64,000 nucleotides of DNA from Evansella cellulosilytica DSM 2522 (GTDB lineage: Bacteria > Bacillota > Bacilli > Bacillales > Salisediminibacteriaceae), in NCBI RefSeq assembly GCF_000177235.2, contig NC_014829.1, forward strand, positions 248,001-312,000. Direction: 5' to 3'. Below, piece after piece: positions 12,360 to 14,539 of this stretch. The notes under the pieces are model-generated. The model was not told the origin of the DNA. It saw nothing but the letters and a program-made list of their open reading frames with translations, and did not search any database. Made by a program: the position numbers and the translations under genes. Numbering within the stretch: the stretch's first letter is position 1; each line of letters begins with the position of its first letter.

Positions 12360-13043
12360 ATGTATATGACAGTAGAACAAAAACCGAGGAAAGTAAGCAA
12401 TGTAGCAAACAATTTAGTAGGAAGTCTTATCATCTCATATGTTCTTTTTAATATGTTGAATTTGTACATATGGTCGAACCACTTTAATGTGATTGATGTA
12501 GCGATAAAACCGTTTATATTAGCTCCAATACCATTTATATGTGTGGCTTTATTAACGCATTACTTAAAAACGAGTACGCTAAAAGCAAAAATACTTCAAT
12601 TTAAGTCCAATATGAGTCAGAAGTGGCAAGCTCATATAGGACTAGTATATGCTGTGATTAGCTTAGCGTTAACGTATAAAATATTTATCCTATTTCATCT
12701 ATATGTGTTAAACGGACATTTTAATCCAGTTGATTTAATTATTAAGCCTTTTTTGGCATTACCAATAGCTGCTTTCATTACAATGTTATTAGTGAAGGGG
12801 ACAAAATATACTCAAGTTAGAAAAAAATATGTTACTGAACTAAACAACAGTAATCAGGATCGAAACGAAAACAAACGAATTGCTGTGAAAAATTTAGTGG
12901 AGAATAAAGCCACCGATAGGTTGATTATGGGCAACTTTGCACTTCACACACCTTATGTGTTTAATATAGATATAAACATTGAAGCGAGGATCGGGAAGGA
13001 TTCATTTGTTTCAAAAGTGGATGTTCTCGAACCCTTCCCTTGA
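12360..13043 (+). CDS. Membrane protein with internal duplication, unknown
   Basis: The 227-residue protein has four membrane segments in two matching halves. NHFNVIDVAIKPFILAPIPF (about residues 40-59) is repeated as GHFNPVDLIIKPFLALPIAA (about 119-138), each after a hydrophobic span. The C-terminal 75 residues are soluble, basic at first, and end in a short strand-rich region. AAAGGGG lies ten bases before the ATG. I recognise no family. The H-F-N-x-(I/V)-D-x-x-I-K-P-F signature in each half may be a functional loop. Confidence 0.65.
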   Translation: MYMTVEQKPRKVSNVANNLVGSLIISYVLFNMLNLYIWSNHFNVIDVAIKPFILAPIPFICVALLTHYLKTSTLKAKILQFKSNMSQKWQAHIGLVYAVISLALTYKIFILFHLYVLNGHFNPVDLIIKPFLALPIAAFITMLLVKGTKYTQVRKKYVTELNNSNQDRNENKRIAVKNLVENKATDRLIMGNFALHTPYVFNIDINIEARIGKDSFVSKVDVLEPFP

Positions 13044-13052
13044 TACTTAGAC

Positions 13053-13706
13053 TTACCATTTGATACTTTTTAGGAGGAATAATAACTCGTCTATACGACT
13101 TTGAGAAATCCCCCAATTCGGTATTTCTTTTGATAAGTCGGCTAATGTACCATGCTCCTTTACGAAGCCATTTAACCTGGCAACTAAAGTAGCATTCACG
13201 AGCTCATCATCGGTAGGAAAAACGTCGTGTAATTTTTCAATAACATGCTTATACCTTTTCAGATAATATTTTTGATGATAATCTTCTGCAACATAAAACG
13301 TAGAAAAAGGTGCTACCTCAGTTTGCAACGTTTGTTGATGTGTTTCTTCGATCTCTAATTTTATTTCTTCTGCATCTTGTTGTTGCTGCTGATTATGGTA
13401 TAGAAGTAGAGACATGTATTGCCTACCTTTATAAAAACTATCTTTAAATCCATGGTGGTGTTTCCAAAATAAACGTAAAATGTCTTTATAACTTAAAATA
13501 GTCGGATCAAATTGAACTTGCAGTACTTCTGTATGATCACCCATATTACGATAAGTAGGATCTTTTAAAGTGCCACCTGCATATCCGACACGTGTTCTTA
13601 CCACTCCTGGAAGATGTCCGAACCGGGCATCTGGACCCCAAAATCAACCCATACCAAAAGTAGCAAAAGCAATCGTAGTTGCTTGTATATCATAAGTATT
13701 TTTCAT
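13053..13706 (-). CDS. msrA: Peptide methionine sulfoxide reductase A with in-frame TGA at the catalytic Cys (putative selenoprotein)
   Basis: From ATG 13706, behind an AGGAGG site, the frame reads 20 residues ending ATFGMG, then TGA (13646-13644), then FWGPDARFGHLPGVV and a normal MsrA body to 13053. In MsrA the motif is GCFWG, so the TGA replaces exactly the catalytic cysteine. The full product would be 217 residues with selenocysteine 21. The rest contains no cysteine at all, so no resolving thiol exists. The sequence just after the TGA can fold into a hairpin suitable for a bacterial SECIS. The enzyme reduces methionine-S-sulfoxide. Alternatives are a nonsense mutation or sequencing error; an unlikely internal GTG start at 13604 would give an inactive protein. 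Confidence 0.75.
13605..13643 (-). promoter_or_regulatory. SECIS-like hairpin after the msrA TGA
   Basis: On the minus strand, AGATG (13632-13628) pairs with CATCT (13616-13612), and CCG pairs with CGG inside it around a GTT apical loop. About 20 bases lie between the TGA and the loop, and the loop begins with G, both as described for bacterial SECIS elements. The stem is short and has a mismatch, so this is suggestive only. Confidence 0.45.
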
Positions 13707-13972
13707 GTATGATTAACCTCCTAAACTTTACTTTCCAATTAGCTTAAACTATTTTATTGGAATTATAAATGAGGCTTTTTTTATGTTAGTGATAGTGAAG
13801 TGAAGATTTACGTCCTCTGTTGGAAAAAGCAATAAGTGAAGCCCTAACAAGATGATGAAGGAACTTATGTATTGCCTCCAGAAAGAGAAAACGAATAAAA
13901 TAAAATGAAAATTAACATCCAAGTATTCCTAGAAGAAAGACAAGTGAATTAATGACTTTTCTCGTTTTCGTG

Positions 13973-14539
13973 TCAATTTATTTTATTAAATAACATGCCG
14001 AAATGATATGGCGGAAAAGCAACCTGTTTTTCCAAAGATAGGTGAGCATCTTTCGCCCACTTTATGATTTGATTTGGTGATGGCCTTATTTCTAACGAAG
14101 GACCTCTCGGTGTATCATCGTTGATCCAGTGAATGACACCGACTTTTCCACCGACTTTTATCAGTTTAGCAGCATCAATGAATAGTTGAACAGGATCCTC
14201 ACAATGTAGAATGTTAAAGAGTGTAATATAGTCAGCCAATTTAATATCACCTTCTGCTGATTTAACAATATCGGTAATATCTCCAGTAATTAATCTTACT
14301 TTATCATTTGTGGCTACTCTCTCTTGGCATACTCGCAAATAATGTTCATCAATATCAATGCCTATCACATTCTCTTTTACAATATGAGAAGCAGGAATGA
14401 GAAATGTGCCGTATCCACAGCCAACGTCAATAAGAGTGTTAACCTTTTCTGTTACTTCTAGCTTCTTTAGTATTTCTATCGGATTAAAAAAATTCTCCCA
14501 TAAAGCTTCTTCGGGCATTCCCGACTCTCGGTACTTCAT
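13973..14539 (-). CDS. Class I SAM-dependent methyltransferase
   Basis: The 188-residue protein has the SAM-binding motif I LIDVGCGYGTFLIP near residue 36, motif II acidic residue in IGIDIDEHYL, and a post-motif LADYITLFNILHCEDP. The substrate is unknown. The start is placed at ATG 14539 because GGAG lies nine bases upstream within an earlier in-frame ATG (14554). It is divergent from a LysR regulator about 130 bases away, an arrangement often seen for a regulator and its target. Confidence 0.85.
   Translation of the reverse strand: MKYRESGMPEEALWENFFNPIEILKKLEVTEKVNTLIDVGCGYGTFLIPASHIVKENVIGIDIDEHYLRVCQERVATNDKVRLITGDITDIVKSAEGDIKLADYITLFNILHCEDPVQLFIDAAKLIKVGGKVGVIHWINDDTPRGPSLEIRPSPNQIIKWAKDAHLSLEKQVAFPPYHFGMLFNKIN

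Follow-up and report, generated by a model that had tools for sequence, protein, structure and literature searches.

A UGA-containing msrA gene in Evansella cellulosilytica DSM 2522: evidence for a selenocysteine form of methionine sulfoxide reductase

Does the single in-frame TGA of an msrA gene in Evansella cellulosilytica DSM 2522 encode selenocysteine (Sec), or does it mark a gene that is broken, leaky or wrongly delimited? The gene is found within a stretch of 64,000 nucleotides (the window), which spans positions 248001-312000 of a genome of 4,681,672 bases in one contig. MsrA is a known selenoprotein family of prokaryotes, with a GUFWG/H motif (2026 review, PMC13188914), and it is likewise named as such in a review of 2022 (PMC9312934). 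For Bacillales, three selenoproteins of three families were counted in a survey of 2006 (PMC1794560). A Sec-MsrA of a bacillus was not found in the parts of the open literature consulted here, and a search of the open literature for selenium work on Bacillus cellulosilyticus, Evansella or Bacillaceae likewise returned none.

The msrA frame and the predicted protein

The frame was read again from the sequence. It runs from an ATG start at 13706 to a TAA stop ending at 13053 on the minus strand, with a single in-frame TGA at codon 21. The AGGAGG/ATG start, the coordinates and the lone TGA, all given in a preliminary description of this DNA, were recovered in this way. The features of the locus are as follows:

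13053..13706, minus strand: msrA selenoprotein gene, 217 aa with Sec21, stop codon included
13644..13646, minus strand: in-frame TGA, codon 21 and putatively Sec, where the G-U-F-W-G motif has its catalytic residue
13717..13722, minus strand: AGGAGG, a Shine-Dalgarno-like sequence read from the sequence
13224..13706, minus strand: N-terminal catalytic domain with predicted PMSR fold, residues ~1-161 (Pfam match 15-153)
13056..13223, minus strand: predicted C-terminal helical domain as in the C. oremlandii MsrA, residues ~162-217 (phmmer, model, Foldseek)
13612..13632, minus strand: SECIS-like hairpin within the coding sequence, AGATG.CCG GUU CGG.CAUCU, with a C.A 1x1 mismatch

With the TGA read through, the product of 217 aa was found to score 140.8 bits against the Pfam PMSR family (PF01625, cut-off 23.7). 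This translation bears out the earlier statement that the TGA occupies the site of the catalytic Cys in the invariant GCFWG motif and that there is no other Cys in the 217 residues. Both the PMSR domain and the G-C/U-F-W-G active-site motif by which MsrA proteins are recognised are therefore present, as are the features of the 1-Cys type represented by the C. oremlandii enzyme (CoMsrA), namely a UGA-encoded catalytic residue, the absence of a resolving Cys and a C-terminal helical domain. A mechanical list of open reading frames trims the gene to a frame of 183 aa lacking the active site. Scanning of positions 12900-14000 for promoters and terminators returned five promoter-like sites against 3.9 expected, which is near chance, and no terminators.

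The closest solved relatives identified with phmmer were the Sec-MsrA entries of Clostridium (Alkaliphilus) oremlandii OhILAs (PDB 4lwj, 4lwk, 4lwl, 4lwm and 4u66), with 4lwj aligned over residues 12-216 (E 3.1e-52). An AlphaFold2 model from 24 sequences (pLDDT 92.2, pTM 0.88) has predicted C-terminal helices at residues 166-170, 173-182, 188-197 and 202-214, and the domain boundary given above was drawn from this model and from the division of CoMsrA into residues 1-144 and 145-209. Using Foldseek, the C. oremlandii entries were again returned first (TM 0.85/0.90, 38% identity), with other MsrAs at 0.48-0.62 on query length. The window protein resembles CoMsrA in its predicted Sec at the catalytic site, in the absence of a resolving Cys and in having both a catalytic and a C-terminal helical domain, the latter being needed for active-site formation in CoMsrA (PMC4479559, PMC4333827). 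The two differ in their hosts, E. cellulosilytica being alkaliphilic and C. oremlandii strictly anaerobic (PMC4479559). Ordinary MsrA proteins, such as those of E. coli and mammals, share the PMSR catalytic fold with the window protein. This is also the case for the products of two further MsrA genes elsewhere in the host genome, both of which differ from the window gene in having no in-frame stop. Matches of the family search that are free of stops reach query residue 162 at most and so are not aligned to the helical domain.

Selenocysteine genes of the host and the spread of the TGA codon

The preliminary description had proposed that the genome be searched for selA, selB, selC (tRNA-Sec) and selD, and all four were identified, inside 9 kb. 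These are tRNA-Sec at 2317090-2317182 (60.2 bits against a cut-off of 47, anticodon TCA by ARAGORN), selB at 2318356-2320209 (349 bits), selD at 2321517-2322446 on the minus strand (413 bits), which itself carries one in-frame TGA, and selA at 2324269-2325633 (529 bits). The tRNA-Sec model also gave 23 weaker matches below the cut-off in the host and matched all 14 control genomes, five of them over the cut-off; as it matches every control genome, only the match over the cut-off was counted. Adjoining the tRNA-Sec gene is an ORF (L027:1937-2911, minus strand) that, by its motif, resembles a tyrosine recombinase. Elsewhere in the genome there is a weak selA-like match (3982331-3983248, minus strand; 58.7 bits, under the cut-off). 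It is interrupted by five in-frame stops and may represent a paralogue or relative that has decayed.

The TGA of the host selD (also L027:7416-8480, minus strand) is codon 22 of the listed frame and stands in a U-G-C context, with a strong hairpin, GGCGCAG-GTA-CTGCGCC, downstream of it. The gene likely encodes a second selenoprotein. Formate dehydrogenase alpha is represented in the host by matches at 3124352-3126394 and 997611-999656, one over and one under the family cut-off. Neither has an in-frame stop, and therefore this common Sec client is apparently without a UGA here.

A chance hit on codon 21 had been held unlikely in the preliminary description, where it was suggested that homologues from related strains be compared for TGA or Cys at this codon. 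Homologues with TGA at the same codon were identified in 27 of the 35 genomes of the host's family, the host included, one of which (in G012) has a second TGA farther along. A selA gene over the cut-off is present in 28 of the 35, including 25 of the 27 genomes with the TGA gene, and the two exceptions (G006 and G017) have completeness values of 80% and 76%, respectively. The eight family genomes lacking the TGA gene comprise five with no selA over the cut-off (G009, G010, G023, G029 and G030) and three that are selA-positive (G015, G027 and G032).

A sample of 397 genomes of the host's order was also searched, with msrA matches taken to E 1e-30 and selA counted over its cut-off among matches listed to E 1e-60. 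TGA homologues occur in 49 of these genomes, 12 of which overlap the family set and one of which (G043) has its homologue split by a frame break. selA was found over the cut-off in 181 genomes, among them all 49 with the TGA gene. TGC or TGT stands at the codon in nine order genomes, which are 97-100% complete, and selA was found in none of the nine (to E 1e-60; Fisher 9e-11 for TGA/Cys against selA, relatedness ignored). The Cys genes are distributed over three families, with five in f40, three in f14 and one in f23, and G356, of f14 and of another genus than the Cys genomes of that family, has TGA together with selA. Among the nine, one genome match is partial (G326), as is one of the collected loci (L103). 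Across the 74 homologues collected, the position aligned with the UGA of the window gene is TGA in 65 and TGC or TGT in nine, and in the proposed comparison TGA goes with the presence of selA, Cys with the failure to find it. The breadth of Sec-MsrA among the relatives and the exactness of this match between codon and selA are the less expected part of the findings. As only 49 of the 181 selA-positive order genomes have Sec-MsrA at E 1e-30, many of them may keep Sec decoding for other proteins.

A phylum sample of 398 genomes yielded matches (to E 1e-30) in a further 21, of which 16 have one TGA; three of the matches without a stop reach past residue 198 and two end at residue 151. A scan of a contig database, from which the host's own and very near records may be absent, confirmed one relative only, L023, from a Desulfuromonadales MAG. 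It is like the window gene in having TGA at the same codon, a similar length after it and a similarly designed hairpin in which pair changes are compensated, and unlike it in sharing 42% identity at the protein level and in having a longer open stretch ahead of the motif. Syntrophobacter fumaroxidans, of the deltaproteobacteria, is listed with a selenoprotein MsrA in the 2006 survey (PMC1794560).

Trees were built from 69 of the 74 sequences, five (L045, L053, L062, L102 and L103) being left out as short. The careful tree has two Sec/Cys changes, and two to three are counted over the bootstrap trees, for which the values had yet to converge; a topology with all Cys sequences in one clade is not rejected (AU p 0.43). 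A quick tree has three changes and places the window gene beside the Cys group of f40, a placement that is not present in the careful tree. When rooted on L023, a Sec sequence forming one long outgroup branch, the Cys sequences are nested inside the Sec sequences, which would fit a conversion of Sec to Cys where the machinery is absent.

In three genomes of the host's genus (loci L030, L034 and L035, in G021, G019 and G017) the Sec-MsrA gene is closely followed, in the same orientation, by a second MsrA match. The frame of this second match is 323-330 aa long and stop-free, and is possibly an MsrA-MsrB fusion.

The hairpin downstream of the UGA

A hairpin with a G-starting loop at the distance of a bacterial SECIS was part of the preliminary description. 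It was recovered, and its predicted extent, 13612-13632, falls within the interval of 13605-13660 that had been named for it. It has 8 bp with the 1x1 mismatch and a 3-nt loop, GUU, at 13621-13623, 20 nt after the UGA, with G as the first base of the loop. Its folding energy is -7.6 kcal/mol when 25 nt are folded and between -9.5 and -14.7 kcal/mol for 39-60 nt. These values lie within all the limits for bacterial SECIS elements that are given in the legend to Fig. 2 of the 2026 review, i.e., a loop of 3-9 nt, a stem of 4-16 bp, G in loop positions 1-2, a distance of 16-37 nt from the UGA and an MFE of at most -7.5 kcal/mol (PMC13188914). An Rfam search of positions 12900-14000 returned no match up to E 1.

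Consensus folding of 28 sequences with RNAalifold gave one hairpin after the UGA, with seven pairs, three of which have double changes. The analysis was extended to the 65 TGA sequences (27 from the family, L023 and 37 from order genomes outside the family), which are related and not independent draws. Standard pairs fill 92.5% of their pair cells, compared to 28.7-50.2% when the partner is slid by 1-3 columns. Double-change cells number 30, compared to 10.0 in shuffles (reached by 0 of 500), and pairs with double changes number four, compared to 2.5, with 7 of 500 shuffles attaining that number. For further pair types the count is unexceptional, as 95 of 500 shuffles reach it.

Because the hairpin sits in coding sequence, the same proteins were recoded with synonymous codons, using the codon usage of the later part of the same genes. 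The 65 TGA genes have on average 7.40 of the eight pairs, where 5.33 (sd 0.12) are expected under recoding, and a hairpin energy of -9.17 kcal/mol, where -3.83 (sd 0.26) is expected. The nine Cys genes have 3.78 pairs against 3.84 expected, i.e., no excess, and -4.89 kcal/mol against -3.93 (sd 0.63). At codon +7 of the TGA genes, all 38 Arg codons are CGG (79 of 681 Arg codons later in the genes) and all 26 Gln codons are CAG (228 of 560 later), with CAT in the one remaining gene. The hairpin is thus constrained beyond the protein sequence in the 65 TGA genes and is without such constraint in the nine Cys genes. Of 11 further loci from the phylum sample, six were recovered with the motif pattern: five carry TGA and form 5-7 of the eight pairs, and one carries TGC and forms three. 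With only 5-7 pairs kept, the lower stem is less conserved in these TGA loci.

Alternative readings, proposed decoding and significance

Three other readings of the TGA were weighed against decoding as Sec. The first is that the UGA is read through without Sec, e.g., by a near-cognate tRNA, to give a Trp or Cys form. Low-level UGA readthrough is known in bacilli. A Cys version of the C. oremlandii MsrA is moreover active (PMC4479559). Readthrough of this kind leaves unexplained the constrained hairpin, the full set of Sec genes and the finding of Cys codons only where selA was not found, and we consider it very improbable.

The second is that the gene is a pseudogene, or the TGA a sequencing error, a nonsense mutation having chanced on the catalytic codon. 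The stop-free MsrA genes elsewhere in the host could make the window gene redundant, and frame-broken copies do exist in some relatives. Four of the 65 TGA copies (L045, L053, L062 and L102) have early-stopping frames. A remnant in G271 (L104, ~408-826), a genome with selA, still has its ATG, its TGA and the C-terminal half, but the hairpin and much of the catalytic domain are gone. Found as a stop-free partial match, it was left out of the 65 and of the comparison of codon with selA. The gene is therefore dispensable in places, or the assemblies contain errors. Against this reading, the same-codon TGA recurs in 27/35 family and 49/397 order genomes with the remaining frame conserved in most copies, it is associated exactly with selA, and the hairpin is under synonymous constraint, so that the probability left to a chance mutation or error is negligible. 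Hardly any credence can be given to the third reading, in which the functional product is the open frame past the TGA (183 aa, beginning with GTG at 13604), the TGA merely ending an upstream peptide. This frame, although it is the one given by the mechanical ORF list, has no catalytic residue and is missing the opening strand and helix of the MsrA fold as predicted, and the codons flanking the TGA on either side are kept in 65 homologues. All of these readings (pseudogene, sequencing error, readthrough without Sec, re-initiation after the TGA) were rejected on conservation, the match with selA, the constraint on the hairpin and the missing active site.

It is almost certain, in our judgement, that the gene encodes the Sec form of a methionine-S-sulfoxide reductase, a 1-Cys-type MsrA with a C-terminal helical domain, whose UGA 21 is decoded by means of SelB and the hairpin. 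The selenoprotein reading of the preliminary description is thereby supported by the Sec genes, the codon-selA match and the covarying hairpin. It stands directly on the gene and its conserved UGA, the Sec genes, the hairpin with its constraint and the codon-selA match, together with the predicted fold. Sec insertion, enzyme activity and the recycling partner, as we infer them, would take the following course. SelA and SelD would provide Sec-tRNA-Sec, and SelB, bound to the in-coding hairpin 20 nt downstream, would carry it to ribosomes that have reached codon 21, the UGA. In the finished enzyme, Sec21 would attack the sulfoxide of oxidised methionine (methionine-S-sulfoxide). As the product has no resolving Cys, return of the resulting selenenic acid to the reduced state would call either for a thiol reductant from outside, a glutaredoxin-like protein for example, or for a dimer.

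C. oremlandii reportedly has a selenoprotein glutaredoxin (Kim 2011), in contrast to the host, where a glutaredoxin with an in-frame TGA was not found, none of the three PF00462 matches in the genome having an in-frame stop. For CoMsrA, glutaredoxin serves as the reductant, whereas thioredoxin does not (PMC4479559). It is conceivable, though we think it rather unlikely, that the Sec-MsrA of the order uses a reductant other than the glutaredoxin route, with bacillithiol/bacilliredoxin as a guess, and that in the host it is the main client, beside SelD, that maintains the Sec machinery. If this were true, genomes elsewhere that lost the machinery would at the same time have exchanged the UGA for a Cys codon and let the hairpin decay.

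Sec-MsrA as a kind is already known from other bacteria, and the window gene is an additional, well-supported case, offering a clean example of UGA recoding. The order-wide set amounts to a natural experiment, in which TGA and a constrained hairpin are found where selA is present, and Cys, with the constraint gone, where selA was not found. As changes of Sec to Cys were reported in only four families by the 2006 survey, mostly in formate dehydrogenase and selenophosphate synthetase (PMC1794560), this set may be used for studying how a selenoenzyme survives the loss of selenium decoding.
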